64,000 nt of DNA. Origin: Gammaproteobacteria bacterium (GTDB lineage: Bacteria > Pseudomonadota > Gammaproteobacteria > Steroidobacterales > JABDKV01). Where the stretch lies: positions 62,001 to 126,000 of the forward strand of contig JABDJB010000078.1 in assembly GCA_013003425.1 (NCBI GenBank), in the 5' to 3' direction. Under the pieces are notes generated by a model, which was not told the origin of the DNA, made no database searches, and saw only the letters and a list, made by a program, of their open reading frames with translations. Positions 37,316-52,623 of this stretch are shown here, in pieces. Position 1 is the first letter of the stretch; each line of letters opens with the position of its first letter. The translations under genes and the position numbers were made by a program.

Positions 37316-40300
37316 TCAGGCTCCTTTCTGGATACGACGGCCGCGCATAAACCACAGCCAACTGGCGAAGATGAGCAGCCACGGCGCCGTGGCACCGTTG
37401 CCACCGCCATCACCGACGAGGTTGGTAACGACGGTACCCGGATCTACTGTGATTGCGAAGCTCTGCACCGACTGCTGCGGTACAAAGCCGTTATCCGCAG
37501 CCTGGACGCTGACCTGGTTGGAACCGATATCACCTTCACCGGGGGTACCGCTGATAGTGGCAGTGCCATCGCCATTGTCAGTCAGGGTCAGCCACGACGG
37601 CAGCATTAATGCCTCAAAGCTGATGCTGCCACCATCGGCATCGGTGGTGGTGATGGTAAAGCTGAACGGCTGACCGACAATTGCATCAGCTGCCGGCGGC
37701 GAACTGGTAAATGCCGGCGCGCTAATGTTCGAATTCTTTGCCAAACCCAGAGGCACTACGATCTGGCCATTAGCGGCGAAATCGGCATCACCGGGATTAC
37801 CATCCTCCAGCATGATGATCACCTCATTTGGTGTCCCGCCCAAGGTAAAGGGTAGCGACACCCATCCATCGGCGGCATTCCAGACGAACAGGAAGTCCAT
37901 CGCAGGATCGTATTCAGACGGCAGCGTCAAGGTTAACGTCGTTGCACCGCCGGTTTCGACACCATTGATGATGGCGCGGAAAAAGCCGTCTATGAAATCA
38001 ACACCTGCGGGTACGCCCGGTTGTGCCGATGCCGGCAACTGGTCTACCCCGAGCGCCTCAAGGAAAAATGCAACGCCGCCCGCAGCGCCAATCGTGGCGA
38101 TGCCGGTGTCGGTCGCAGTCTGGACCGGCGCCGCGGAAACGCGTTTCGCAACGATACTACGGACGCCAGTCGCCTCCTCATGGTCGGCTCGCTCCTGCAG
38201 CAGAGCCCGCCCGCCGTCCAGTGGCACGTAGTTATTACCCGTTCGGCTCTCGGCGGTTTCCGAGACGAGGATCGGCTCCGATGCTGTGCCAGTGCTCGTA
38301 TCGTAGGACATGAAATACACCGGCGCCGAGCCATAGCCACCACCCTCGTTCCAGGTGATATCAATAACACCCGGCGTGGCGCTCATGCGTGACTCCACAT
38401 ACCAGGGATGACTGCCATCAGGCTCGGTAAGCATGGTTATCGGGGTTGCGGTAATCGCTTCGGCCGATGCCGCATCGCCACTCTGGTCGTCAAGTGATGG
38501 ATCCAGCGCCATGTAGGTTATTGCGGCGAAAGAGCGGTAGTTGCTGCCACCACGGGTTTCCGGGGGCGTGTCGTCGCCAAAACCGAAAACAATATGCACG
38601 ATATCATTGGCGTCAACCGACAAGGTGCTGTGCTTGGCACCGCTGAGACTGCCTTCCGGCGTCACGGGAGTCGGCGCGATCAGGGTCGAGCCATCTGCAC
38701 CGCTCAGCATGCCGTAGTACAGCCGGAAGCGTACCGGGAAATCATCGTAGTCGCTGCTGTAGACGTAATGCACGTCACCAGCGCTGTCTACGCCCAGGCC
38801 AATTGTCGGGTGACAGGAGTCCAGGTCGTTGATAACGGAAACCTCCGGAAAAATGTCCGCGCCGTCAGGGCCAACCTTGAAATAACTGATAGTGCGCGTG
38901 CCATTGCATCTCTCGCCAGCCATGATGTGCGCGTTACCGTCGGCATCGAGCGTCATCGCGCTGTGGGCCAGAAACAGTGATGAATTGAGCGGGCGCTCGG
39001 CGATGGGGCCAATGACCATCAGGTCAGCCGCACTACCATCCTGGTCATCAGCAGTAATATCCAGGACCTTCAGGTGCAACTTCGGAACACTGCTACCATT
39101 CTCCTGCCACACGACATAAACAACACCGGCATCTGTGGCCGCCACCTGCGCCCGGACGTTCTGACCCGTGCCGGGGCCGCCAACGCCCGTCGCGCTGACC
39201 TGTGTTGGCGCAATAAGCATGCTGCCATTACTGTCGAGCAGCGTGTAGTAAACCTCTTCGCCTGAACCGCCACGCTCCGGGCTCAATTCCCGTGCGGTAT
39301 ACACAATGTGCAATTTGCCGGCAGCGTCTTCCCAGACTTCCGGTATTTGTGCGTTGTCGAGCCCCTCGCTTAGCAGCAGCGGTGCAAGGCCCGCATTCGC
39401 CACCAGTGGATCCAGGCCACTATTAACCTCGCCCGAATCGGACACACCGTCCCCATCTGTATCGGACTTGGCTGGATTTGTCCCCAATGCGACTTCATCT
39501 CCATCACCGAGAGTGTCACCGTCGGTGTCGGTCTCGGTGGGATCCGTGCCAAGATTATATTCTTCCAGGTTGGTGAGACCGTCGCCGTCGAGGTCGCCTG
39601 CGGCATCGGCCATGTTATTCGGGTCGAGGCCGAATAGCGTCTCGTAAACGTTAGGCAGACCATCCTCGTCGTCATCTGCAAAATTCCAGTTCTGAATCTG
39701 CCCGAGAACCGCACCAAGGCCAAGATAGATCTGCGGATAGTCCAGATTGGCCAACGCATTTGCCGAGGTTGTTGCGTCTTCCGCAGTTACATCCATCGCC
39801 CCCAGCGTCATATAAGTGATGGTTTCACCCGGCTGCACCGTTACGCTGTCCCAGGTCCAGTCGACATCATCGTTGCCGCCCAGTGGTACTGAAACGACAT
39901 CCGCCGTATCCGCGCCGCCGGTACCGTCCCAGACATGCGTCACGATCGGGTCATTGGTGTCACCGTTAGTGACTATCCACGAATCTTCAGTAGTCGCTAA
40001 CGCGTCGCCACTCGAGCTGGTAACGATGGTTGTACGGCTGTCTGACCCGAGGTCGGTTTCATTAGACACGGCCACCGTGATCGCTTCCGTCCCGGGATTC
40101 GTCAGCGTGTTGATGTATCGGACGAAATTGACTTCCTGCGGCACAAAGACCCTGCGAACCACATCAAGCCCCGACATGGACTGCACAGGAAACGTAATTT
40201 CCCGACCACTCTCGTCGAATTCCGGTGTACCGGGTGGGTCGTACCGGGTCCCGTCGATACGCATGTCCCAGCAGTCATCGCAGGCATCACTCAGTGAGTC

Positions 40301-40465
40301 GACACCATCGGTCCACCGACCATCATCAAGACCGCCTTCGTTCTCATTAATATCGTAGGTGAACCCAGCGTCGTTAACGAGATCGATATCGGCGAAGGCG
40401 GGAAATGCGGCCAGCGCAAAAAACGGAAACAGAACAAAGGTTCTGAAGAGGCGAGAGATCGGCAT
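37316..40465 (-). CDS. Large secreted TSP3-repeat protein with GlyGly-CTERM-like tail, module A
   Basis: 1,049 residues from the ATG at 40465, with AGGAG eight bases upstream. A signal peptide (FVLFPFFALAAFPAFA) is followed by an N-terminal beta-rich domain with a CDDC pair. Residues about 265-355 carry calcium-binding type-3 repeats (DLDGDGLTNLEEY, DTDGDTLGDGDEV, DTDGDGVSDSGEV). A long repetitive region has units such as EVYYTLLDSNGSMLIAPTQV, suggesting a beta-propeller. Near the C-terminus is a putative Ig-like domain (LPSWLTLTDNGDGTATISG). The end is GDGGGNGATAPWLL, a hydrophobic helix, then RGRR: a GlyGly-CTERM-like sorting signal. Paralogue of 48385-51501. Function unknown; the acidic repeats imply calcium-dependent surface folding. 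Confidence 0.85.
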   Translation of the reverse strand: MPISRLFRTFVLFPFFALAAFPAFADIDLVNDAGFTYDINENEGGLDDGRWTDGVDSLSDACDDCWDMRIDGTRYDPPGTPEFDESGREITFPVQSMSGLDVVRRVFVPQEVNFVRYINTLTNPGTEAITVAVSNETDLGSDSRTTIVTSSSGDALATTEDSWIVTNGDTNDPIVTHVWDGTGGADTADVVSVPLGGNDDVDWTWDSVTVQPGETITYMTLGAMDVTAEDATTSANALANLDYPQIYLGLGAVLGQIQNWNFADDDEDGLPNVYETLFGLDPNNMADAAGDLDGDGLTNLEEYNLGTDPTETDTDGDTLGDGDEVALGTNPAKSDTDGDGVSDSGEVNSGLDPLVANAGLAPLLLSEGLDNAQIPEVWEDAAGKLHIVYTARELSPERGGSGEEVYYTLLDSNGSMLIAPTQVSATGVGGPGTGQNVRAQVAATDAGVVYVVWQENGSSVPKLHLKVLDITADDQDGSAADLMVIGPIAERPLNSSLFLAHSAMTLDADGNAHIMAGERCNGTRTISYFKVGPDGADIFPEVSVINDLDSCHPTIGLGVDSAGDVHYVYSSDYDDFPVRFRLYYGMLSGADGSTLIAPTPVTPEGSLSGAKHSTLSVDANDIVHIVFGFGDDTPPETRGGSNYRSFAAITYMALDPSLDDQSGDAASAEAITATPITMLTEPDGSHPWYVESRMSATPGVIDITWNEGGGYGSAPVYFMSYDTSTGTASEPILVSETAESRTGNNYVPLDGGRALLQERADHEEATGVRSIVAKRVSAAPVQTATDTGIATIGAAGGVAFFLEALGVDQLPASAQPGVPAGVDFIDGFFRAIINGVETGGATTLTLTLPSEYDPAMDFLFVWNAADGWVSLPFTLGGTPNEVIIMLEDGNPGDADFAANGQIVVPLGLAKNSNISAPAFTSSPPAADAIVGQPFSFTITTTDADGGSISFEALMLPSWLTLTDNGDGTATISGTPGEGDIGSNQVSVQAADNGFVPQQSVQSFAITVDPGTVVTNLVGDGGGNGATAPWLLIFASWLWFMRGRRIQKGA

Positions 40466-40543
40466 ATTCAAGTTCTCCTGGTTGCCTGGTCAGCGCGCCT
40501 GGACGCGCGCGTCATTGCCGCTGACCTGTCTCGGACGGACGTA

Positions 40544-40572
40544 ACCATAATTAAGTTATACAGATATCACAA
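40544..40572 (-). promoter_or_regulatory. Likely sigma-70 promoter of surface module A
   Basis: Reading leftward: TTGTGA (40567-40572), 17 bases, TATGGT (40544-40549), about 70-80 bases before the ATG. The -35 overlaps the stop codon of modC. The region between is AT-rich around the -10. No terminator separates modABC from this point, so read-through is also possible. Confidence 0.5.
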
Positions 40573-41667
40573 CGTTTCACGAACCTGCCCGAAAGGTTTC
40601 ACGGCGACGCCTTTTATCTGAGCCGTAACCTGTCTGCCCTCGGCCAGCGCGAGTTCATGAAGTGACATACGGGAGATATTCGCCAACAGGCGAGCTTTTC
40701 CCCCGACAATAAGTTCAATCTGTACGTACGGCCCGCCAGTGTCTGTGACACAGTTCACAGTTGCCCGGAGCTGGTTGAGAATCGAACTGCTCCCGGGCTG
40801 CTGCAATGACAGGCTGACATCACGGGCCAGCACACGAACCCGGACCCGGCCGTTTGCGGCAACCAGGTCGCCGGGCACGCGTAGCGTACCGCCCTCAAAG
40901 GTTAACGTTGTTACCTGGCTTGATGGATCGTGGCTTTCCACCATTGCGTCGATAAATACGCCCGTCTCATCGCTGCCGAAAATGGCCGGGTCGCTCAGCA
41001 GTGCCGCGACGCTGCCTGCCGCAGTGATGACGCCGTCACGCATCACGATCAGATGGTCACAGAGGTGGGTGATCTCGTCCACGCTGTGACTGACATACAG
41101 GATCGGAATGGCCAGCTCCGAATGCAGCCGATCAAGGAATGGCAGGATCTGGCGTCGACTGTCGCTATCCAGCGCCGCCAGCGGCTCATCCATCAGCAGC
41201 AGCCGCGGTGCTCGCAACAGCGCCCGCGCGATTGCCACCCGCTGGCGCTCGCCACCCGACAGCTGGGCAGTCGGCCGCCCGACCAGCCGGTTGATGCCGA
41301 GCAGTTCACAGACCTGTTCACGGCCCGGTTCAGGTCGCTGTGACGCCCGCTTCAACCCGTAGTCGATATTGCCTGCCACATCCAGATGCGGAAACAGCCG
41401 TGCATGCTGGAACACGTAACCTACTTCCCGGTGATGTGGCGGAACGAAAATCTTCGCGCTGCTGTCCTGCCAGGTAGCACTGCCAACTTCGATGCGGCCG
41501 CCTGCGTGTCGCTCAAGGCCCGCCAGACAACGCAGCACCGTGGTCTTGCCACTGCCGGAGGCCCCGAACAGGCCGGTGATGCCCCGTGCCGGCAGGTCAA
41601 ATCCGGCCTGCAGCCGGAAGCCCGGCCGCTTCAGTTCGATATCGCAACGGCCGAGACGCTCAGGCAT
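40567..41667 (-). CDS. modC: Molybdate ABC transporter, ATP-binding protein
   Basis: 366 residues. Walker A LFGASGSGKTTVLRCLAG, signature LSGGERQRVAIARALL, Walker B LLLMDEPLAALD and YVSHSVDEI are present. The C-terminal third is a TOBE/MopI-like molybdate-sensing domain (QLRATVNCVTDTGGPYVQIE), which distinguishes ModC from other importers. It overlaps modB by eight bases, is last in modABC and energises ModB. Confidence 0.95.
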   Translation of the reverse strand: MPERLGRCDIELKRPGFRLQAGFDLPARGITGLFGASGSGKTTVLRCLAGLERHAGGRIEVGSATWQDSSAKIFVPPHHREVGYVFQHARLFPHLDVAGNIDYGLKRASQRPEPGREQVCELLGINRLVGRPTAQLSGGERQRVAIARALLRAPRLLLMDEPLAALDSDSRRQILPFLDRLHSELAIPILYVSHSVDEITHLCDHLIVMRDGVITAAGSVAALLSDPAIFGSDETGVFIDAMVESHDPSSQVTTLTFEGGTLRVPGDLVAANGRVRVRVLARDVSLSLQQPGSSSILNQLRATVNCVTDTGGPYVQIELIVGGKARLLANISRMSLHELALAEGRQVTAQIKGVAVKPFGQVRETL

Positions 41668-42364
41668 GACGGCGCGGCCGGTTGATCAGGTAAAGCGACA
41701 GCAGCGCCACGAAAGCGAATGACAGCAGGATCCCTGACAGCACGTGGGCGCTTTCGTAGTTGAGGCTCTCGACATGATCGTAAATGGCAATCGATATCAC
41801 CCGCGTTTCACCCGGAATGTTGCCGCCGACCATCAGCACCACACCAAACTCGCCCAGGGTGTGTGCGAAACCCATCACTGCGGCCGTCAGGTACCCACGC
41901 ACGGATTGCGGTACCGCCACGGAGAAAAACACATCCAGCGGCCGGGCACCGAGCGTTGCGGCGGCCTCCAGCGTACCCTCGCCCACCGACTGGAACGCAT
42001 TCTGCAGCGGCTGCACCACGAACGGCAGGCTGTACACACATGATGCGATCACCAGTCCGGTAAACGAAAAACTCAGCGCCTCGCCGGTGAGCGAGACCCA
42101 GAAGCGACCCACCGGGCCCGCCGGCCCCAGCAGTATCAGCAGGTAGAAACCCATCACTGTGGGCGGGAGCACGATCGGCATGGCCACGACGGCTTCAACC
42201 GGTGCGCGCCACGCACCGCGGGTGCGCGCCAGCCACCAGGCCAGAGGCGTACCCAGCACGATCAGAATGACTGTCGTGATACCGGCCAGCTGCGCCGTCA
42301 GCCATAACGGGCCGGCACCGGGGAAATGCGGCAGCCAGCCATCGAGCCCGACGCCGTCAGTCAT
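41660..42364 (-). CDS. modB: Molybdate ABC transporter, permease
   Basis: 234 residues with five or six membrane segments. The EAA coupling motif is seen as EGTLEAAATLGARPLDVFFSVAVP, and the ModB-type LPPTVMGFYLLILLG is present. It forms the channel for ModA-delivered molybdate. It starts 18 bases after modA. Confidence 0.95.
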   Translation of the reverse strand: MTDGVGLDGWLPHFPGAGPLWLTAQLAGITTVILIVLGTPLAWWLARTRGAWRAPVEAVVAMPIVLPPTVMGFYLLILLGPAGPVGRFWVSLTGEALSFSFTGLVIASCVYSLPFVVQPLQNAFQSVGEGTLEAAATLGARPLDVFFSVAVPQSVRGYLTAAVMGFAHTLGEFGVVLMVGGNIPGETRVISIAIYDHVESLNYESAHVLSGILLSFAFVALLSLYLINRPRRHA

Positions 42365-42382: not shown

Positions 42383-43144
42383 TCACCTGGGCAGCTGGTA
42401 ACCGCGCTGTCGGATGATCTCCAGCGCAGCATCGGTACGCAGGCTGGCGAGAAACGCCCGCGCTGCCTTATTAGTCTCAGCCCGTTGTAACAAAAGACCC
42501 TGCTGCAGAATCGGCGCATGTCCGGCAGGCGGCACCGCGTAGCTGCAGGTTCCCTCAGGGATCCGTTCGTCGACAAGCTGCGCGGCCGCTATCAGACCGA
42601 GATCGGCGTTGCGGGTCGCTGTGAAATGAAATGCCTGGCCGATGTTTTCGCCGGTAACGATCTTCTTCCGCAGCTTTTCCCACAGGCCGAGGCTCCGCAG
42701 CCACTGCCTTGCCGCCGCCCCGTAGGGAGCGGTAAGCGGATTGGCGATAGCCAGGTGGCGAAAATCGAGGTCCTTCAGCACCGCCAGGCAGTCCTTCCCG
42801 GCATACCTGCTGTTCCTTGACCACAGCACCAGCGTGCCCTCGGCATAACTGATGCGGGTTCCCGGCACGGCCAGCCCCTCATGCTCGATGCGCTCGGGCC
42901 GCTCTGCGTCGGCGGACAGAAACACATCAAATGGTGCACCATTGATGATCTGCGCATACAGCTTGCCGGAGGAACCTGCGCTGACCCGGATACTGTGGCC
43001 CGTCTTCTGGTTGAATTCCTTTGCCAGCAGGTTAGCGGTTTCGCTGAAATTACTGGCAACGGCCACGGATGCGAGTTCTGCGTACGAGAGCTGGGCCCAG
43101 CCCAGCAGCACGGCCCAGAAAACCGCATTTGTTAGTATTCGCAT
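42383..43144 (-). CDS. modA: Molybdate ABC transporter, periplasmic binding protein
   Basis: 253 residues. Signal peptide (ILTNAVFWAVLLGWAQLSYA) is followed by SVAVASNFSETANLLAKEF, VSAGSSGKLYAQIINGAPFD and FLSADAERPERI, the oxyanion-binding features of ModA. The ATG at 43144 is only 24 bases from the start of the divergent ECF-like gene, so the promoters must overlap each other or lie inside the coding ends. Confidence 0.95.
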   Translation of the reverse strand: MRILTNAVFWAVLLGWAQLSYAELASVAVASNFSETANLLAKEFNQKTGHSIRVSAGSSGKLYAQIINGAPFDVFLSADAERPERIEHEGLAVPGTRISYAEGTLVLWSRNSRYAGKDCLAVLKDLDFRHLAIANPLTAPYGAAARQWLRSLGLWEKLRKKIVTGENIGQAFHFTATRNADLGLIAAAQLVDERIPEGTCSYAVPPAGHAPILQQGLLLQRAETNKAARAFLASLRTDAALEIIRQRGYQLPR

Positions 43145-43168: not shown

Positions 43169-44341
43169 ATGGTGACGCTGAAAATAATATATCTCATCGC
43201 GCTCGCGGTCGCATTGTTCATCCCCCGTGACCCGCTGGTGCTTGCGCTGCTGCTGGGCGCGCACGTGCTGCTGTGGTTGATGTCCGGATTGTCGGTGTCG
43301 GGACTGTGGCGTGCGGTGCGCCGGCTGCGCTGGTTCATTCTGGTTATTTTCGTTTCCTACGCGTTCATCAGCACCGCGGAGCCCGACTGGTACCGCTTCA
43401 CAATTGGTCCGTGGCAGCCGGCAATCAACCTGGCCGGTCTGCAGCTGGCCGCACTCATGTCTATCCGCGTGCTGATCATGGTGATCACCAGTGCCTGGGT
43501 ACGTGAGACCTCGCCCAAAGGGGCTTTTGTCGTGGCAATGCGCCATATAGGCATTCCACAAACGGTTGCTGTCGGTGTTGATGCCACGCTGGACATGGTC
43601 AGTAGCGGTGGTGGCCGCGGCGATGGCAGTGGTGGCGGCAAGCGGCGAAAAAAGACCGCGTCATTGTCTTTCGCCAGTATCCGGTCCGGGGACCTGTCCT
43701 CTTTTACCCGGCTGCTGGACCAGAAGTTTGCCGCAGCCCGGCAGCGTATAGGGGCGTCGTACCCGGAACTCCCGGAACGACGTATCCACGATATTACGGT
43801 GGTGCTTACCGTTGGCCTCGTCGTGATGGGATTGAAGGTGCTGCAGGTCATGCCCGGTCTGCCGGTTGCACCCGGGCACAAGAATTTGCTCATCGTGCCG
43901 CTGCTGCTGTTCGCGGCACGGGCCACCCACATGCCGCTTGGCGCGACCGCGGCTGGCCTGACGACCGGCATCGTGTCCTTCCTGCTCGGCTACGGCAAGT
44001 TCGGCGTGCTGGAGATCAGCCATTTCGTGGTGCCGGGGCTGCTGGCCGACCTGTTGATGCCACTGGCCCGGGCGCGCAGCCGGCCGGGACAACTGGTACA
44101 GTACGCCGCCATCGGCGCCGTGCTGGGGCTGGGTCGCTTTGCAGCGAACTTCCTGGTCATCGTGCTTGCCGGCGCGCCATGGACGGCATTCGTGATTTAC
44201 CTGCCGATGCTGTTTTCGCAGATCGGCTTTGGTGCCCTGAGCTGCCTGGTCAGCCCGCTGGTTGTCGACCGCGGACTACCGGATGCAGCCCCGGGCGACA
44301 AACATATTGAAAACCGTCATTCCGGGGAGAGTACCGAGTGA
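43169..44341 (+). CDS. ECF-transporter-like membrane protein, T and S components apparently fused
   Basis: 390 residues. The first ~140 residues hold four or five membrane segments and resemble EcfT/CbiQ proteins. A Gly-rich linker (146-157) and basic patch KRRKK (158-162) follow, then a soluble helix with AAARQRIG that loosely resembles the EcfT coupling motif. Residues 207-365 form five or six more membrane segments (GATAAGLTTGIVSFLLGYG, FVVPGLLADLLMP) of the kind seen in substrate-binding S components. No ECF ATPase is nearby. Its stop overlaps mosA by four bases (GTGA), so it is made together with the storage proteins. A role in molybdate or tungstate movement is inferred from context. 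An alternative is an unrelated paired membrane protein. Confidence 0.6.
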   Translation: MVTLKIIYLIALAVALFIPRDPLVLALLLGAHVLLWLMSGLSVSGLWRAVRRLRWFILVIFVSYAFISTAEPDWYRFTIGPWQPAINLAGLQLAALMSIRVLIMVITSAWVRETSPKGAFVVAMRHIGIPQTVAVGVDATLDMVSSGGGRGDGSGGGKRRKKTASLSFASIRSGDLSSFTRLLDQKFAAARQRIGASYPELPERRIHDITVVLTVGLVVMGLKVLQVMPGLPVAPGHKNLLIVPLLLFAARATHMPLGATAAGLTTGIVSFLLGYGKFGVLEISHFVVPGLLADLLMPLARARSRPGQLVQYAAIGAVLGLGRFAANFLVIVLAGAPWTAFVIYLPMLFSQIGFGALSCLVSPLVVDRGLPDAAPGDKHIENRHSGESTE

Positions 44342-45186
44342 GTGATTTATTGAGCGGCGATGGCCGCACCCACGTGCGCAGCGGATTGATGCGCGAGAGC
44401 CTGGTCAGCAGCAAGCTGATCGCAGAAACCGATGCAAAAAAAGTGCGGCGCATGGTGCCTGATGTCTGCATGGTCGCCATAGGCGGGCGCAGCATCATGG
44501 ATCGCGGGCGCGAGGCAATTTTGCCGCTGGTTGACGAAATTGCCGGCCTGAAGGAACGGCACAAGATTGTCATGGGTGTCGGTGGCGGCGCCCGCGCGCG
44601 GCACACCTACGCGATCGGACTGGACCTTGGCCTGCCGCTTGGCGGGCTGGCACGCATCGTCGGCGGCGTCGAAGAAAACAACCGCGACATCCTGCAGTTT
44701 TTGCTGGCACCGCACGGCGGCATTACGTTTATCAAGGATCACTTCCAGGACCTGCAGTTGTTCCTGGCCAACGGCATGATCCCGATCTGTATCGGGCAGC
44801 CGCCCTATCATTTCTGGGAGCCACCGTCGAAAGAACCCGGCCGGCTCCCGGACAACGGCCCCGACGTAGGCCTGTTCCTGCAGGCCGAAGTAATTGGTGC
44901 CGAGCGAATGGTTTACGTCAAGGACGTAGACGGTGTATTCACCAACGATCCGCATAAAGACGACAGCGCGACGCTGATTGAAAAAATCGGCGCTGCCGAA
45001 CTGCTGGAACGCAAGCTGCCTGACATGCCGGTAGAACGCGAGCTGCTGCGGACACTGGAAAACGCCCGTTCGCTGACCTCTGTTCAGGTAATCAATGGCC
45101 TCGTGCCAGGAAACATTGGCCGGGCGCTCGATGGCGAACCCGTCGGGACCATAATTTATTCAAGCCGTGACGGTGACCGCTCATGA
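44338..45186 (+). CDS. mosA: Molybdenum storage protein, alpha-type subunit (amino-acid-kinase fold)
   Basis: 282 residues with the nucleotide-kinase (UMP kinase-like) fold: VAIGGRSIMDRG (48-57), MGVGGGARARHTYAIGLDLG, YVKDVDGVFTNDP and VQVINGLVPGNIG. These segments resemble Azotobacter MosA, a member of the cage that stores molybdate as oxide clusters using ATP. PPYHFW with His158 lies where MosA has PPYHHH, near Mo-binding histidines (from memory, to be checked by alignment). It starts with GTG overlapping the ECF-like gene and overlaps mosB by four bases. The N-terminal 35 residues are longer and charged. Uridylate kinase is unlikely because the pair, the RARH motif and the context all fit MoSto. 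Confidence 0.78.
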   Translation: MSDLLSGDGRTHVRSGLMRESLVSSKLIAETDAKKVRRMVPDVCMVAIGGRSIMDRGREAILPLVDEIAGLKERHKIVMGVGGGARARHTYAIGLDLGLPLGGLARIVGGVEENNRDILQFLLAPHGGITFIKDHFQDLQLFLANGMIPICIGQPPYHFWEPPSKEPGRLPDNGPDVGLFLQAEVIGAERMVYVKDVDGVFTNDPHKDDSATLIEKIGAAELLERKLPDMPVERELLRTLENARSLTSVQVINGLVPGNIGRALDGEPVGTIIYSSRDGDRS

Positions 45187-46010
45187 ACAAGCGTGAAGGC
45201 AAGATCTGGATTGACGGCATGCAGAACGTGCTGGCCGGTGAAACACTGGCGGCAACCGATATCCGCGAGCGGCTCGGTGACAGGCACAGCGTCGACGTAC
45301 TACCTGATGTATGGGTGCTGAAAATCGGCGGCCAGAGCATCATGGACCGCGGCGGTGAGGCCGTTCATCCGATTCTGGAAGAACTGCGCACCGCACAGAA
45401 AAACGGCACCAAGTTTGTCATTGGCGCCGGTGGCGGCACGCGTGCACGGCACGTCTACGCACTGGGGCTGGACCTGGAAATGCCCACCGGGATGCTGGCC
45501 CGACTCGGCAGCTCGGTGCCGGTGCAAAACGCCCGTATGCTGCAGATGCTGATGGCAAAAGACGGTGGCATCATGATGTACCCGGATGACTTCGAAAAAC
45601 TGCCATTTTTCCTCAATGCCGGCTGTATCCCGATCATGTCGGGTATGCCACCAAACGAGTTCTGGGAAAAATCTGCATCAGTCGGGCTGCTGCCCACCAA
45701 CCGCACCGACGCCGGCGTCTACCTGATGGCGGAATTCCTTGGCGCAAAGGGTGTGCTGTTTATCAAGGATGAAGATGGTCTTTATACGGACGATCCCAAA
45801 AAGAACCCGGACGCAAAACTGATACCCGAAGCCAATGCGGCCGAACTGCTGGCCAGCGGCCAGGATGACCTGATCGTCGAACGGGTGGTGCTGGAATACA
45901 TGACACGCGCCGAGAAGGTTAAGGAAATCCGGATCATCAACGGGCTGAAACCCGGTCAGGTAACCGCGGCGCTGAATGGTGAACAGGTCGGCAGCGTGAT
46001 CCGCGCCTGA
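45183..46010 (+). CDS. mosB: Molybdenum storage protein, beta-type subunit (amino-acid-kinase fold)
   Basis: 275 residues. Segments VLKIGGQSIMDRG (45-57), IGAGGGTRARHVYALGLDLE, LARLGSSVPVQNARMLQML, TDAGVYLMAEFLGAKG, FIKDEDGLYTDDP and IRIINGLKPGQV closely resemble Azotobacter MosB. Together with the upstream subunit it should form the alternating hexameric cage that takes up and holds molybdate or tungstate. The segment aligned to the MosA Mo-site reads GMPPNEFWE here, without His, as expected for division of labour. It ends exactly where the convergent rhomboid gene ends. Confidence 0.8.
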   Translation: MNKREGKIWIDGMQNVLAGETLAATDIRERLGDRHSVDVLPDVWVLKIGGQSIMDRGGEAVHPILEELRTAQKNGTKFVIGAGGGTRARHVYALGLDLEMPTGMLARLGSSVPVQNARMLQMLMAKDGGIMMYPDDFEKLPFFLNAGCIPIMSGMPPNEFWEKSASVGLLPTNRTDAGVYLMAEFLGAKGVLFIKDEDGLYTDDPKKNPDAKLIPEANAAELLASGQDDLIVERVVLEYMTRAEKVKEIRIINGLKPGQVTAALNGEQVGSVIRA

Positions 46011-46943
46011 TCAGGCAAAGGCCAGCATCCAGGCAAGCAGGCACACGCCCGGCGTTACCAGGCCCGCAATGAGCTGGCGGCGATCGTCATGCAGCCAGTC
46101 CTGCGGCAGCTGCGCGGCGATAATGCCGCCACCCATGCCGGCGGCAAACCCGGTCAGGTGCGCCACGATGTCGGTGCGCTCATCGCCGGTGCCCAGGTAC
46201 GCCAGCAGCACCGCCCCGCTGATGAGCGGTGCAATTCGATAGGCCGCATGGAACCGCGAATCGCGGCGATGCATCCAGGTATAAGCCGTCAGCACTCCCA
46301 GTGCGGCAAACACCGCGGTCGAGGCACCGACGGCGCGATGTATCGGGTGCTGCAGAAGGACATTGACGATGTTACCCAGCGCACCACCAGCAAGGATCAG
46401 GCCCCAGCCAAAGCCCTGCCCGATCAGCTGACCCAGGAACATGCCAAAGATGGCGCCGATCACCGCATTACCGGCCAGGTGTGCAGCATCGGCGTGCAGC
46501 ATCAATGCGGTGACTGCCCGAAACCACTCGCCGGCACGCATCAGCCGGCCGTCCACCCGTCCCTCGACATACCAGTCGAAGCCAAACGCCGGCGCATTAG
46601 ACATCCAGTGCAGCACCAGCAGGAGCGTCATGTAGCACATCGCGCCAACAACACCGCCAGACACTCGTGGAAGCTGTTTCAGTACCGGCGGCCAGCCACG
46701 GTTTTCCTTTTCGTACAGTGCCAGCTGCCGGCGTGCTTCATCGGCAAGCGATGAATCCACAGCAAGCGCGTAAAAGCCATCCAGCTGAATAATTTCGTAA
46801 GGCAGGTTCAGTGCATGCAGTACCAGGGCATGCTCGTGGCAAACCGGGTATGAGCCGGTCTCGTAGACAACCGTGAGGTTCCTGGTCACATCAGCCACAC
46901 GTTCCGATTCATGGGTGCTGGCGAACGCAGTTGTTCGAAACAA
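46011..46943 (-). CDS. Rhomboid-family intramembrane serine protease
   Basis: Up to 310 residues; the first codon is TTG and a GTG 16 codons in (VADVTRNL) is also possible. A cytosolic N-terminal domain (about residues 25-85, with YPVCHEHALVLHALNLPYEI) precedes six or so membrane segments. The catalytic pair is visible: GASTAVF with Ser208 and HLTGFAAGMGGG with His262, plus HADAAHLAGN (His150, His155, Asn159). It is longer than typical rhombosortases, so its substrate class is uncertain. It lies between the two modules whose large proteins carry GlyGly-CTERM-like tails. Confidence 0.85.
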   Translation of the reverse strand: MFRTTAFASTHESERVADVTRNLTVVYETGSYPVCHEHALVLHALNLPYEIIQLDGFYALAVDSSLADEARRQLALYEKENRGWPPVLKQLPRVSGGVVGAMCYMTLLLVLHWMSNAPAFGFDWYVEGRVDGRLMRAGEWFRAVTALMLHADAAHLAGNAVIGAIFGMFLGQLIGQGFGWGLILAGGALGNIVNVLLQHPIHRAVGASTAVFAALGVLTAYTWMHRRDSRFHAAYRIAPLISGAVLLAYLGTGDERTDIVAHLTGFAAGMGGGIIAAQLPQDWLHDDRRQLIAGLVTPGVCLLAWMLAFA

Positions 46944-47005: not shown

Positions 47006-47518
47006 TCACTTGTCTTTTCGACCAGCCTTGTCGCGCTTGTCGGTCCGCCGGGATCGGGACGGTCGTGCTGAGCCGTCATCCTGCGATGCAGGAACCAGCA
47101 CAATTCGCCCGATGTTCTTCATACCCTTGCCACGCTCTACCTGACCGGATGCGCTACCCAGCTTGAAACCACGATAGTTCGTCGCGATAAAATATAGCTC
47201 GTTTTTTCCGGATTCGAGTTCGGCGCGTTCAAAGCGCTTGTGCCGAGGCCGGCATGATTCAAACTCTATCGCTACGATATCGGGCCGCAGATGCAGCAGC
47301 GATCGCAGCGGCAGCGCACCAAATCCCCTGATCCCGGGCAGTTGCACGAGCCCGTCCATTTCGCGAATCTCACTGCTGGTCTTGTGCCATATCAGCTCTT
47401 CGCCGTAGAACAGAGCCACGGTGCCATCGCATGCCAGCCGGTTATCCGCGTCTTCCTTCGACTCCGCCAGCACGCCGTGCGACACAGCCATCAACAGCAG
47501 CACAACCAGCAGGCGCAT
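47006..47518 (-). CDS. Small exported protein, paralogue of 51538-52032
   Basis: 170 residues from the ATG at 47518, which opens a signal peptide (MRLLVVLLLMAVSHGVLA). The mature domain has LACDGTVALFYGEELIWHK, LPLRSLLHLRPDIVAIEFES, CRPRHKRFERAELES, FIATNYRGFKLG and GKGMKNIGRIVLVPASQDD. The last three blocks recur in the gene at 51538. The tail is very basic (SRRTDKRDKAGRKDK). The pattern, a PLRSLL segment followed by beta-strands and IVLVP, faintly recalls compact molybdopterin-domain proteins, but no cofactor motif is certain. It lies beyond the terminator of module B and probably has its own transcript. Confidence 0.7.
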   Translation of the reverse strand: MRLLVVLLLMAVSHGVLAESKEDADNRLACDGTVALFYGEELIWHKTSSEIREMDGLVQLPGIRGFGALPLRSLLHLRPDIVAIEFESCRPRHKRFERAELESGKNELYFIATNYRGFKLGSASGQVERGKGMKNIGRIVLVPASQDDGSARPSRSRRTDKRDKAGRKDK

Positions 47519-47688
47519 TACGAGCCACCTCTCTGCTGCCGCCATGAGTGGTCTGCCGTGCTGAGACAACAATGGCCACCGCTCTTCCGGGCACCCCGCG
47601 ATGGCGCGGCCGAAAAACCGGGCTTGAACCTGATAATCAACATCGGCGGATCATACATCGATTGTGCCCGGCAGAGAAAACACCCAAT

Positions 47689-47734: not shown

Positions 47735-48388
47735 TCACTGGTTTTTCGGGATCCGGTATTCTACCCCGGCCGACCAGAAACCAGCCCGGTCGTCCATGTT
47801 GAACACCTCGTAACCCACCGAGCCACGCCAGTTGTCGTTGAAATCCATGCCCAACGAAACGCCGTAGTACGGTGAGGCATCCGACTCATCGCGGCCGGAG
47901 GCACCGGTCGCATCGCGATCGGAATCTGCATCGATCATTCCCAGCCTCAGCGCCACACTGAGCTTCTGCGCTAATGGCCCAGTTGCGCCCATATCGGCAA
48001 AACCAAAGCGTGCAACGCCGGCCAGTGTCAGCCCGGCGGGCATCACTGGCAATGCATTGGCCACATCAGTGGCAAACTGCGCCGTTTCTGATGGCGATAT
48101 ATCCGCGGCGACATTAGTCGACACGTCGCCCAGGTCCGCATAGCCAAACTCGATAGCAAGAATGTCCGTGAACGTCAGGCCGACGTAAAAGCGCCAGCCG
48201 GTGTCATCACCATCGACGCTGACACTATCGACATCGTAGCTACTGAGCCTGGCCGCAACATCGGAACCCCTTGCCTCAGAGTCGGATTGGCCAATGGCGA
48301 GCCCGGTATAGAACTCGACGTCGGCGCTGACATGCCCTGACGCCAGGAGCATGGGTAAAAAAGCCAACAGAATTTTACGCAGCCTCAT
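47735..48388 (-). CDS. OmpA-like outer-membrane beta-barrel, module B
   Basis: 217 residues. The start MRLRKILLAFLPMLLASGHV (ATG at 48388) gives a signal peptide and overlaps the TSP3 gene stop as ATGA; the open frame runs 20 codons further into that gene. The barrel shows VEFYTGLAIGQSDS, alternating strands and a C-terminal FWSAGVEYRI. It is the paralogue of 36650-37312; LTLAGVARFGFADMG and LGMIDADSDR have close counterparts there. Tight coupling to the large protein suggests the two act together at the outer membrane. Confidence 0.87.
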   Translation of the reverse strand: MRLRKILLAFLPMLLASGHVSADVEFYTGLAIGQSDSEARGSDVAARLSSYDVDSVSVDGDDTGWRFYVGLTFTDILAIEFGYADLGDVSTNVAADISPSETAQFATDVANALPVMPAGLTLAGVARFGFADMGATGPLAQKLSVALRLGMIDADSDRDATGASGRDESDASPYYGVSLGMDFNDNWRGSVGYEVFNMDDRAGFWSAGVEYRIPKNQ

Positions 48389-51300
48389 GATTGCACCTCC
48401 CGGCGCGCACGGGCCCAGAACAGCCCGACACCGAGCAATAACAGCCATGGTGTGGTGGCGCCGTTGCCGCCGCCGTCACCGCTGATATTCACCCGCACTG
48501 CCGACGCGGCCACGTTGATGCTGAAACTCTGCATCTGCGACTTTGCAACGCCACTGTTGTCAGTGATCATAATGACAACCTGACTGCTTCCGATATCACC
48601 GGCAGTGGGTGTTCCGCTCAGCGTTGCGGTGCCGTCACCGTTGTCCACCAGCGTCAGCCAGGATGGCAGCGTTGGTGCTGAAATCGTCAGGGTGTCGCCA
48701 TTGGCATCCGTTGCCTGGACCGTGTAACTGTAAGCACTGTCTTCGGTCGCTGCCGTAACCGGGCTGCTGGTCACGCTCGGCGCAGTGTTGGTGTCAGCAG
48801 CAGGGCCTCCCAGCAGAACAATCTGGCCATTAACGATGCCATCGGCATCGCCGGCACCACCATCAACCAGGGTAAGGACTGCCTCCGGATCGGTGCCTGC
48901 CGTGAAGTCGAACAGCTGCCAGCCATTGACTGCATCCCACAGGAAGTAGACTGCGCTGGCATCAAGCGCAGTGGGCAGCTCGACAGAGACTGTAACCGTG
49001 GCGCCTGGCGCGCTGTCGATCACCAGCCTGAACAGCCCATCGGCAAAATCGACGTTCCGCGGAGCAGTCGCCTGCGCGCCAGTGGGCAAATCAGCCACAA
49101 GCGCCACATCGATCGCAGCGGCAGTGCCGATATCGTTCTCGAATGTTGCCGTTCCGGTTCCCGTCGCGGTCATAACGCTGGTCAGACCCAGCGAGCGCCC
49201 TACTATGGTGTCAAAGCCGTCGATAAACTCCGACCAGAAAACCTGGCCGCCGGCGATGGCGGTATAGCGATTACCGGTACCGCCGGTGGCAACATCAGTC
49301 AGTGTCGACACAGGCTCGACGACATTGCCGGAGGTGTCCAGGACCATGCGCTTCAGCTCGTCGAAGCGACCGCGATCACGAAAACCGTCGCGGCAGGTTG
49401 CGCCATCGTTCCAGGTTATTTCCAGGTTGCCATCGTCATTCAGCCCGGACCACGTGTACCAGCTGTGCCGGCTGTCGTCGACGCTGACTGCTGTTTCGCC
49501 AACCACCCGGATCACACCGGGATCGGCTGCGTCACCGCTCTGGTCATCGAGCGACGGATCGAGTGCCAACCGATAAACTTCACCATCCTGACAGTTGCCG
49601 TTGTTGCTGCCGCCCTCGGGGACCGCACTGCCATACACAACATGCAGGATGCCGCTGGCATCGAAGTTACCCGTGGGGTGCTTGGATCGGAACCCGTCGT
49701 TGATCGCAATCAGCGTCTCGTCGATCAGCTTCGCACCCGTCGCGCCATCGATCATCATGTAGTGCACTTCCTCGTCGGTGCCGCCACGAATCGGTGCGGT
49801 GACGGGGTCGCGGGTGTAAACGATATGCACGTTCCCGTCGCTGTCGATCGAGAGATCCGGGTTAGCGTGACAGTCATTGAAGGATGCCACCAGGGTCGTC
49901 TCGGCGATCAACTCGTTACCATCGCCATCAAACTTGGAGTAATTCAGCGGAGCGCCACAGGGGTTGTGACCGGCAAAATGCAGGTTGCCGTCGGCATCAA
50001 TGGCGATTCCCGAATGACCGCCCGCGCTGGCCAACACTGTTGTCTCGGCCACGGCCATCAGCGTCAAAGGATCAGCAGCATCACCATTCTGGTCGTCCGT
50101 CTCAGGGTCCAAACGAGCCAGCTTGGAAATATTGCCGTCCTGTACCCACAGAACAAATGCCCGGTTGGAGGCGTCAGTTACGATGCGCGGTCTGACATCA
50201 CTACTCACATTCTCGGTAAGCCGGGTCGGACCAATTAGTGCCTCACCCGTCGGACCTAACAAACTGTAATAGATTTCGAAGTCGCCCTCGTCGAAGCTAG
50301 CCCCCGGATCCTGCATCCAGACCACGTGGGTATTACCCAGGGAATCCACCGCAGCACGTGGCAGCCAGGCATCTTCGCCCATGCTGATTTGCGCCAGGGT
50401 TGCAGAAACATCGCCAGGATCCAGCGGGTCACCGCCGGTGTTGATTTCGCCGCCGTCACCGAGGCCATCGCCGTCCGTGTCGGAATTGTTCGGATCAGTG
50501 CCATGGGTATTGACCTCGTCGCCATCGCTCAGACCGTCGTCGTCAGTATCGGTGTCAGTCGGGTCAGACGAGTTGTCGAACTCGGCCAGGTTGGTCAGGC
50601 CATCACCGTCCAGGTCGGTTGCCGCATCAGATGGATCATTGAGGTCGAGACCAAAATTGGTCTCGAAATAATCCGGCATGCCGTCGCTGTCCGTATCCGG
50701 GAATGACCAGTTCTGAATCTGCTGGATCTCAGCATCACTTATCCCGGCAAACTGCTCAATAAAATCGACAAGGTTGAACAGGTCTTCTGTAGTTGCCTGG
50801 GCGGCGGCATCGTCAACTTCAGCAGTGTAAAACGCCATGAAGATGTACGTCTCACCAGCGGGAACCGTAACGGCAGACCAGCCCAGTTCCAGCGACGTAT
50901 CGCCGCCGCGGTTCGTTGCCGGTGCGCCCTCAAAAGTGAGCTGGTCCACAGCAGTGCCACCGGCATTGCCCCACACCATGCCGTGGCGGGCGTGCTCCGG
51001 GTTCGTCTGCCAGGTTGCCCACAGGTCGTCCAGGGCTACGATGTCATCACCACTTGAACTCGCGACGGAAGTTAGCGAGTTAGTGCTGTCAAAAAACTGG
51101 TTATCAAGAAGAATGTTTACGGCGACATCTGCGCCGGTGGTGTTCTCCAGGATTGTCAGACTGCGCACCCAGTTGGCTTCAACCGGAACGTAGGTACGCC
51201 GGGTTACCGTCAGCGCCGTTGTCAGATTGGCATCAACGCCCGACAGCGCCTCGCGGCCATTCAATCCGACTGATGAACTGTCGCCATTGAAATTTATTCC

Positions 51301-51501
51301 GTCGACGCGCAAGAAAAAGACGTCGTTGCATCCATCCTGGACTCCCGGCGGTTCGCAGTCGGTTATGTTTCCTTCGCTGGGATCGACCTCGTAAAGGACG
51401 CCATCGCCATTTGTAAAATTGATGTGATCGGCCAACACCGGTCCGGCGATTAGCAGCGCAAGCCCGCCAGTCAGTGCTCTACTTAGCCATCGAATGCTCA
51501 T
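48385..51501 (-). CDS. Large secreted TSP3-repeat protein with GlyGly-CTERM-like tail, module B
   Basis: 1,038 residues; GGGAG lies seven bases before the ATG. Signal peptide ALTGGLALLIAGPVLA; an N-terminal beta domain with a Cys pair; TSP3 calcium repeats at about 268-360 (DTDSDGMPDYFE, DLDGDGLTNLAEF, DTDDDGLSDGDEV, DTDGDGLGDGGEI). A long region of repeats follows (EIYYSLLGPTGEALIGPTRL; VHYMMIDGATGAKLIDETLI), perhaps a beta-propeller. An Ig-like domain (LPSWLTLVDNGDGTATLSG) comes near the end. The C-terminus is SGDGGGNGATTPWLLL, a helix and ARARR. The same domain order and tail as 37316-40465 shows a module duplication. No enzymatic motif is seen. Confidence 0.87.
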   Translation of the reverse strand: MSIRWLSRALTGGLALLIAGPVLADHINFTNGDGVLYEVDPSEGNITDCEPPGVQDGCNDVFFLRVDGINFNGDSSSVGLNGREALSGVDANLTTALTVTRRTYVPVEANWVRSLTILENTTGADVAVNILLDNQFFDSTNSLTSVASSSGDDIVALDDLWATWQTNPEHARHGMVWGNAGGTAVDQLTFEGAPATNRGGDTSLELGWSAVTVPAGETYIFMAFYTAEVDDAAAQATTEDLFNLVDFIEQFAGISDAEIQQIQNWSFPDTDSDGMPDYFETNFGLDLNDPSDAATDLDGDGLTNLAEFDNSSDPTDTDTDDDGLSDGDEVNTHGTDPNNSDTDGDGLGDGGEINTGGDPLDPGDVSATLAQISMGEDAWLPRAAVDSLGNTHVVWMQDPGASFDEGDFEIYYSLLGPTGEALIGPTRLTENVSSDVRPRIVTDASNRAFVLWVQDGNISKLARLDPETDDQNGDAADPLTLMAVAETTVLASAGGHSGIAIDADGNLHFAGHNPCGAPLNYSKFDGDGNELIAETTLVASFNDCHANPDLSIDSDGNVHIVYTRDPVTAPIRGGTDEEVHYMMIDGATGAKLIDETLIAINDGFRSKHPTGNFDASGILHVVYGSAVPEGGSNNGNCQDGEVYRLALDPSLDDQSGDAADPGVIRVVGETAVSVDDSRHSWYTWSGLNDDGNLEITWNDGATCRDGFRDRGRFDELKRMVLDTSGNVVEPVSTLTDVATGGTGNRYTAIAGGQVFWSEFIDGFDTIVGRSLGLTSVMTATGTGTATFENDIGTAAAIDVALVADLPTGAQATAPRNVDFADGLFRLVIDSAPGATVTVSVELPTALDASAVYFLWDAVNGWQLFDFTAGTDPEAVLTLVDGGAGDADGIVNGQIVLLGGPAADTNTAPSVTSSPVTAATEDSAYSYTVQATDANGDTLTISAPTLPSWLTLVDNGDGTATLSGTPTAGDIGSSQVVIMITDNSGVAKSQMQSFSINVAASAVRVNISGDGGGNGATTPWLLLLGVGLFWARARREVQS

Positions 51502-51537: not shown

Positions 51538-52032
51538 TCACGATGCCGGCTGAACTGATTTCGAACGCTTGCCAGAGCGCAGCGTGCCTTCATCCTGTGA
51601 TGCAGGAACAAGCACGATGCGCCCGATATTCTTCATTCCCCGGCCTCTCTGGCCGCCGGCGATATTGCGTAACTTGAATCCACGATAATTGGTTGCAACC
51701 AGATAAAGGCCACTACTACGCTGAGATTCCAGTTCGGCTCTCTCGAAGCGGCGTTGCCGCGGCTTGCACGATTCGAGCACGACGGCCACGATATCCGGCT
51801 GCAGCGCCAGCAGCGAGCGCAGCTGCAAACCGCTTTTGCCCTTGTGTTCCTTGAGTTTGACCAGCCCTTCCAGTTGCCGGATTTCGCCGGACCCCTTGGT
51901 CCAGAGCAATTCATCGCCGTAATACAGCTTTACCATTCCGTCGCAGGGCAATCGTCCCGGACGTCGTTGTGGCGGTTCTGCCAGCAGTTGCAGCGGAATA
52001 AGCAGGCAAAGCAGCAATATGAACCTTGTCAT
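51538..52032 (-). CDS. Small exported protein, paralogue of 47006-47518
   Basis: 164 residues with a signal peptide (MTRFILLLCLLIPLQLLA). Mature blocks LPCDGMVKLYYGDELLWTK, LQLRSLLALQPDIVAVVLES, CKPRQRRFERAELES, LVATNYRGFKLR and GRGMKNIGRIVLVPASQDE parallel the gene at 47006. One Cys near the start and one in ESC[KR]PR are kept in both copies. Its ATG overlaps the preceding gene stop (ATGA). A 36-base gap separates it from the TSP3 gene, so it is part of the module B operon. Function unknown. Confidence 0.75.
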   Translation of the reverse strand: MTRFILLLCLLIPLQLLAEPPQRRPGRLPCDGMVKLYYGDELLWTKGSGEIRQLEGLVKLKEHKGKSGLQLRSLLALQPDIVAVVLESCKPRQRRFERAELESQRSSGLYLVATNYRGFKLRNIAGGQRGRGMKNIGRIVLVPASQDEGTLRSGKRSKSVQPAS

Positions 52033-52565
52033 GACCCGCCCCTGTGACGCTGACGCTCTCGGTCGAGGCGACGTTCATCCGGCGTCATAAAGCGCCGTCT
52101 GCCACGTTTGCCCTCATCGTAATCGAGCTCTGGCTGACCGTTATTTACTGCCGGGGTTGGAGTCGGGGCCGGCGAGTCGACGCGGGATGAGCGCACCGGG
52201 TGATAGACAATCGGATCGCCAGTGGCCAGAAACCGCACCTTGCTGATGCGCCGACCTCCGTCGCAGTCGGGGTCGGCCACCGTGCTGACGATAATATTGT
52301 CCTCGCGGGTAAGAGACTCGATGAGCTCGACGGGCAACTGCTCGATATCTGCACTGATCGGCCTGTCTGCCCCCTTGAAGTGAAGTTCAAACCCCAATTC
52401 TTCGGCGAGACCCTTAAATACTGCAGAAAGGTGGACGTCATCGGCTACCAGGCGGACAACTCCGCCGCAGCCATTTGCCGTTATCGAGAGGTAGTCGGGC
52501 GCGCCGGCCCCTGTTGCAGGTGCCAGCGTCATCACAGCCAGCCAAAAGCCAGTGATGATCCGCAT
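52029..52565 (-). CDS. Exported protein with STN/secretin-N-like domain
   Basis: 178 residues from MRIITGFWLAVMTLAPATGA, a signal peptide. Residues about 40-95 (VHLSAVFKGLAEELGFELHF, followed by PISADIEQLPVELIESL) have the beta-alpha-beta look of an STN or secretin-associated domain, found in TonB receptors, FecA and secretins. The C-terminal third is proline-rich then basic (KRGRRRFMTPDERRLDRERQ). A longer start at 52619 is open; a GGAAGC/GCTTCC hairpin (52569-52586) lies just before the chosen ATG. It overlaps the small exported gene by four bases. The assignment is by pattern only. Confidence 0.6.
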   Translation of the reverse strand: MRIITGFWLAVMTLAPATGAGAPDYLSITANGCGGVVRLVADDVHLSAVFKGLAEELGFELHFKGADRPISADIEQLPVELIESLTREDNIIVSTVADPDCDGGRRISKVRFLATGDPIVYHPVRSSRVDSPAPTPTPAVNNGQPELDYDEGKRGRRRFMTPDERRLDRERQRHRGGS

Positions 52566-52623
52566 CCGGGAAGCATAGCAGCTTCCGGGCTGTTTGCCCG
52601 AAATTATCCTGCTAACCATACAG

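Follow-up and report, generated by a model that had tools for sequence, protein, structure and literature searches.

A possible ECF-derived molybdate or tungstate carrier encoded directly ahead of MoSto-type storage genes in five related bacterial genomes

ECF transporters, the type III ABC importers, are known for vitamins, cobalt and nickel. The molybdenum storage protein (MoSto) has been described in a nitrogen fixer and discussed as a supply for nitrogenase. In the MoSto of Azotobacter vinelandii (MosA/MosB, PDB 2OGX and 4F6T), which consists of two paralogous amino-acid-kinase-fold subunits encoded side by side, a Mo8 cluster is bound by His156 of the alpha subunit together with Glu129 (PMC4504029). 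The protein has been called "rather unique", with no known homologues in the protein databases, and high-affinity molybdate transport independent of storage was inferred for this organism (PMC6448029). Some S-components, among them certain BioY and BtuM proteins, have been recorded to transport with no ECF module, and sensor kinases and MreD have the same fold as S-components (PMC11109136). No paper naming ECF and molybdenum storage together was found among the open-licence literature; an earlier description is possible.

The window, a stretch of 64,000 nucleotides from a gammaproteobacterial genome that is 95.5% complete, carries three consecutive forward-strand genes that bring these themes together. 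A membrane fusion protein of 390 amino acids (43169–44341), with an EcfT-like half and an S-component-like half, is followed by a MoSto-type subunit of 282 amino acids with a GTG start in the mosA position (44338–45186) and by a second of 275 amino acids in the mosB position (45183–46010), with 4-base overlaps at both junctions. Back to back with these, on the reverse strand, lie modA for the molybdate-binding protein (42383–43144), modB for the ABC permease (41660–42364) and modC for the ABC ATPase (40567–41667), each above its NCBIfam equivalog cut-off (TIGR01256, TIGR02141 and TIGR02142, respectively). The preliminary description of this DNA had the gene order, coordinates and 4-base overlaps right; its placing of the three genes as facing modABC did not hold, since the operons are divergent, the start codons of modA and the fusion gene lying 24 bp apart. 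ModABC is adjacent to the fusion and probably shares its substrate, but its fold is that of a type I ABC transporter, it has a periplasmic binding protein, and it is unrelated to the fusion. An Rfam search around modA and the fusion gene found no riboswitch or other RNA, two tRNAs being all that were found in the window.

The N-terminal half of the fusion matches the Pfam family CbiQ (PF02361) over residues 3–136, with 32 bits against a cut-off of 25. Among the relatives of the fusion this model is also above its cut-off in locus L033, and is below it in L007 and L030. Model positions beyond 141 of 216, the coupling-helix region, are unmatched by the fusion. At the place of the ATPase-coupling helices there is instead a Gly/Lys/Arg-rich linker (residues ~146–163, 43604–43657, +), present in all five relatives while its sequence drifts, and the stretch that follows is only 23–40% identical between relatives, less than the rest of the protein. 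No conserved pair of the Ala-Arg-Gly coupling motifs of T-components was seen in the alignment of the fusion relatives. An IRSGDL-like motif around residues 171–176 contains an invariant Gly close to a basic residue. The part of the T-half that would couple to an ATPase looks eroded. In the AlphaFold model of the full protein, which like the others was built from three sequences and has a pLDDT of 68 (below 50 at residues 147–164, the linker region), the best PDB fold matches are chains D of the ECF transporters 7nnt, 7nnu and 6zg3, with 5d3m at rank 7; these chains are read here as EcfT chains.

The C-terminal half (residues 199–369, 43763–44275, +) is the most conserved part of the protein. 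Its 171 residues align without gaps in the five genomes and 69 of them are invariant, against 20 of 198 in the N-terminal half. The invariant polar residues include H237, K238, N239, H254, K277, E282, H285, D294, R305 and R323. Six helices are predicted between residues 203 and 360 in the full model; the model of the isolated half merges helices and has a pLDDT of 63. The top fold match of this isolated model is 5EDL, the S-component YkoE of Bacillus subtilis (PMC5037267), at a probability of 1.00, an E-value of 0.07 and a TM-score of 0.53, with the next match at a probability of 0.18. No fold match reaches E<0.001 for either the full protein or the C-terminal half. An S-component fold is supported by these models, albeit weakly and short of proof. 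Family models place one half of the protein and not the other: the EcfT character suggested earlier for the N-terminal half is borne out by PF02361 and by the EcfT chains heading the fold list, and the proposed Gly-rich, Lys/Arg-rich linker is present ahead of the six predicted helices. The C-terminal half in the window has no Pfam or NCBIfam match, its proposed S-like nature being backed by the 5EDL fold match to a low-confidence model; no unrelated permease family was matched.

The two storage-type proteins were compared with PDB sequences. The mosA-position protein matches MoSto beta at E 4e-57 and alpha at 1e-47, with the best UMP kinase at 2e-7; the mosB-position protein matches MoSto beta at 6e-65, with the best UMP kinase at 6e-9. 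In a tree that included the MoSto of A. vinelandii and Azospirillum, MoSto-like proteins from two other gammaproteobacteria, two UMP kinases and the five fusion loci, the five mosA-position proteins form one clade and the five mosB-position proteins another (support 100/100 each). The mosB-position clade tends to group with the beta subunit (support 89/95), and the UMP kinases lie past a very long branch. Identity as UMP kinases, the outcome that the preliminary description had set against a MoSto assignment, is ruled out by the E-values and the tree. The window MosAB are deep branches on the MoSto side, with ~40–45% identity to known subunits. They are MoSto-type proteins with a putative storage role. 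As in A. vinelandii, two paralogous subunit genes stand side by side in all five fusion loci and the position of alpha His156 is kept, as PPYH, in 5/5 mosA-position proteins. They differ from A. vinelandii MoSto in forming their own clade, in their linkage to the membrane fusion and modABC in genomes without nifH, and in alpha Glu129, which has no clear equivalent in the mosA-position proteins, where an acidic residue and a His are found nearby.

A survey of mosAB loci, proposed with the first description of the region, was positive for the fusion. The fusion gene immediately precedes mosAB in four further genomes, G002 (locus L006, apparently MAG Ww579), G266 (L007, apparently HTCC5015), G237 and G057, so that all five fusion loci carry mosAB and the arrangement is more than chance. 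Divergent modABC genes are present in G002, G266 and G237 as well as in the window, while the G057 contig begins at the fusion. The five genomes span four families (f1, f10, f101 and f179). Among 369 genomes of the class, the window's included, the fusion was found in three and mosAB in five, with mosAB in all three fusion genomes; in a phylum sample of 378 genomes, the window's genome was the only one with the fusion or mosAB. The exact 4-base overlap of fusion and mosA is particular to the window's genome; elsewhere the two genes overlap by 8 bases (L006, L007) or are separated by 1 base (L033) or more (L030). In two gammaproteobacterial genomes, G230 and G316, mosAB occurs without the fusion and with other neighbours (L031, 3263–4917; L032, 7326–8222). 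No plasmid-borne fusion was found. Plasmid mosAB was seen only in Azospirillum, where two loci have no fusion or molybdenum transporter annotated alongside.

Other genes recur around these loci. A large secreted protein is encoded next downstream of modC in the window (37316–40471, −), in L006 (2215–5388) and in L030 (13142–14326), and near modC in L007 (1125–3530), with an IS-disrupted copy between. A further large secreted protein is encoded in the window at 48385–51501 (−). The copies in the window show choice-of-anchor U and thrombospondin-3-like matches, and their tail has a Gly-rich stretch, a transmembrane segment and Arg. This protein is a conserved part of the molybdenum neighbourhood. 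A rhomboid protein adjoins mosB in the window (46011–46943, −) and is also found in L006 (10853–11458); it matches rhombosortase weakly (22 bits, with the cut-off at 84) and is a candidate for processing the Gly-rich tails just described. Two small, probably secreted families without a Pfam match also recur around the fusion, mosAB and modABC loci (window 47006–47572, 51538–52032 and 52029–52619, −; L033 2905–4187; L007 59–1079).

Relatives of the S-component-like half also occur as standalone proteins. In G050 the standalone relative is 32% identical to the S-half over 85 residues, and comparison of the fused and standalone profiles with hhalign gave E 5e-6 and a probability of 86% over 65 columns. 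Four such loci were found, in G050, G397, G177 and G190. A TonB-dependent receptor adjoins the S-like gene in every one, by family model in G050 and by reading of the sequence in the other three, and a weakly matched methanogenesis marker 11-like protein adjoins in three of them (G050 and G397 by model, G190 by reading). The cassettes of TonB-dependent receptor and S-like protein lie at L053 6081–9784, L061 5389–9465, L059 1438–3459 and L063 7826–11277, and represent a possible molybdenum or tungsten uptake system. The surroundings in G397 include formate dehydrogenase alpha, FdhD and YqeC. A permease there belongs to the NF038017 subfamily and has TupB as its second-best model, with a score under the cut-off of that model, and another protein combines stretches resembling ModE with stretches resembling molybdopterin biosynthesis proteins. 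This cluster links the S-like family to molybdenum or tungsten without reference to mosAB, a hint given by this single locus. G050 also encodes a standalone EcfT-like protein (L004 1192–1869, −) with 24% identity to the T-half and no ECF gene seen beside it; it lies elsewhere in its genome and gave no clue to function.

The lack of an ECF ATPase near the fusion, pointed out in the preliminary description, extends to the whole of the window's genome, in which no EcfA reaches the TIGR04520 cut-off of 315 bits (the best match has 146) and no second CbiQ/EcfT was found. Nine of the ten best ATPase matches were scanned, L045 being left out. Seven have their best fit in other ABC families (MacB-like, two MsbA-type, PhnT2/PotA-like, dipeptide, LolD and DrrA-like), and two match no family at E<=1e-75. 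ModC is an ordinary ModC by its family model and is in the middle of the list against the ECF ATPase model, at 99 bits. A hidden EcfA or second EcfT was rejected on these results. The nitrogenase gene that had not been visible in the window is likewise absent from the genome as judged by nifH, which is far below cut-off here and in six other mosAB genomes, two of the seven being only 73% and 82% complete. These include G230 and G316, which have mosAB without the fusion, and a nitrogenase context for mosAB was rejected for the seven. Molybdopterin oxidoreductase matches are present in 10 of the 11 genomes searched, with three such matches in the genome of the window, so the metal has other uses.

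The fusion resembles ECF transporters through its N-terminal half by sequence (CbiQ) and its C-terminal half by predicted fold (YkoE). It differs in having T and S in one chain, in the Gly/Lys-rich linker at the coupling-helix region, and in a locus without vitamin, cobalt or nickel context. It is not classed here as an ECF transporter, because conserved coupling motifs are lacking and the genome has no EcfA above cut-off; it is better described as ECF-derived and may work like a solitary S-component. It is similar to these in its S-type domain and in the lack of a detectable ECF motor, but has the attached EcfT-like half, and its putative substrate is an oxyanion.

The preferred reading, held tentatively and at slightly less than an even chance, is that the fusion is an ECF-derived molybdate or tungstate carrier tied to storage, with substrate, direction and energy source all inferred. 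The EcfT-like scaffold, permanently joined to the S-component-like domain, would sit in the inner membrane. The S-component-like domain would bind molybdate and/or tungstate, and the oxyanion would be handed to the MosAB cage encoded next door. MosAB would spend ATP to pack it into clusters, so that storage acts as the sink and could drive uptake, while ModABC would remain the ordinary high-affinity importer. An ordinary ECF motor is unlikely, because the genome has neither an EcfA above cut-off nor a second EcfT, and because the coupling region is a poorly conserved Gly/Lys-rich linker; the carrier would most likely work without EcfA, for which S-components without an ECF module are a precedent. 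The carrier reading is supported by the position of the fusion before mosAB in 5/5 genomes, with divergent modABC in the four whose contigs reach, and by the MoSto kinship, the CbiQ match and the ECF proteins heading two fold lists. It is further supported by the conservation of the S-half with its invariant polar residues, and by standalone S-like relatives near TonB-dependent receptors, one of them in a molybdenum/tungsten cluster. Against it, the fold matches miss E<0.001 on models of modest pLDDT, the molybdenum/tungsten context of the standalone relatives is one locus, the second Mo8 ligand Glu129 has no clear equivalent, and with a complete ModABC alongside, a second route of uptake seems superfluous.

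If the fusion were an importer driven by ATP, with ModC or some other ABC ATPase borrowed to stand in for EcfA, it would provide a second ATP-driven route for molybdate or tungstate. The divergently adjacent modC in 4/5 loci would suit this, and the IRSGDL-like motif, with its invariant Gly and basic residue, could be the remnant of a coupling motif. The unmatched CbiQ positions beyond 141 and the low identity of this stretch among relatives (23–40%) argue otherwise, however, as does a ModC that is ordinary by its family model and falls so far short on the ECF ATPase model, and such borrowing is considered improbable. A similarly small chance is given to the possibility that the fusion, rather than importing, acts as a sensor or release valve, or docks MosAB on the membrane. 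The cationic linker, kept in 5/5 relatives despite its drift in sequence, could hold the anionic cage or an anion at the membrane, sensor kinases and MreD use the S-component fold too, and no motor was found in the genome. Yet no signalling domain is attached to the fusion, and the standalone relatives beside TonB-dependent receptors indicate a transport context.

The substrate itself may be questioned. Carrier and storage protein might cooperate on another oxyanion or a nucleotide-like compound, as the depth of the MosAB branches (~40–45% identity to known subunits), the unclear conservation of Glu129 and the lack of nifH above cut-off would allow. This is slightly less probable again, given modABC beside 4/5 fusion loci, His156 as PPYH in 5/5, the molybdenum/tungsten cluster around one standalone S-like gene and the molybdopterin enzymes in 10/11 genomes. 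Far less probable than any of these is that the C-terminal half is an unrelated permease-like domain, with an ECF likeness that is merely that of small helical membrane proteins. Its missing Pfam and NCBIfam matches and the weak fold E-values leave some room for this, but CbiQ is above its curated cut-off in the window and L033, and ECF proteins top two separate fold lists, the S-component having a probability of 1.00 against 0.18 for the next match.

For the ECF-derived carrier of molybdate or tungstate preferred here, a more specific form can be proposed, which in full detail is rather unlikely: an ATPase-free carrier with T and S in one protein, for which MosAB pays the ATP, within a broader, undescribed S-like family of molybdenum or tungsten carriers that has standalone members partnered by TonB-dependent receptors. 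The joint gene layout suggests that metal entry and storage may be built as one unit. The presence of MoSto-type genes with a dedicated membrane protein in genomes without nifH means that storage may serve other molybdenum or tungsten enzymes. If the carrier needs no ATPase of its own, it would be well suited to testing cleanly how ECF parts manage transport on their own and whether uptake can be driven by a storage cage.
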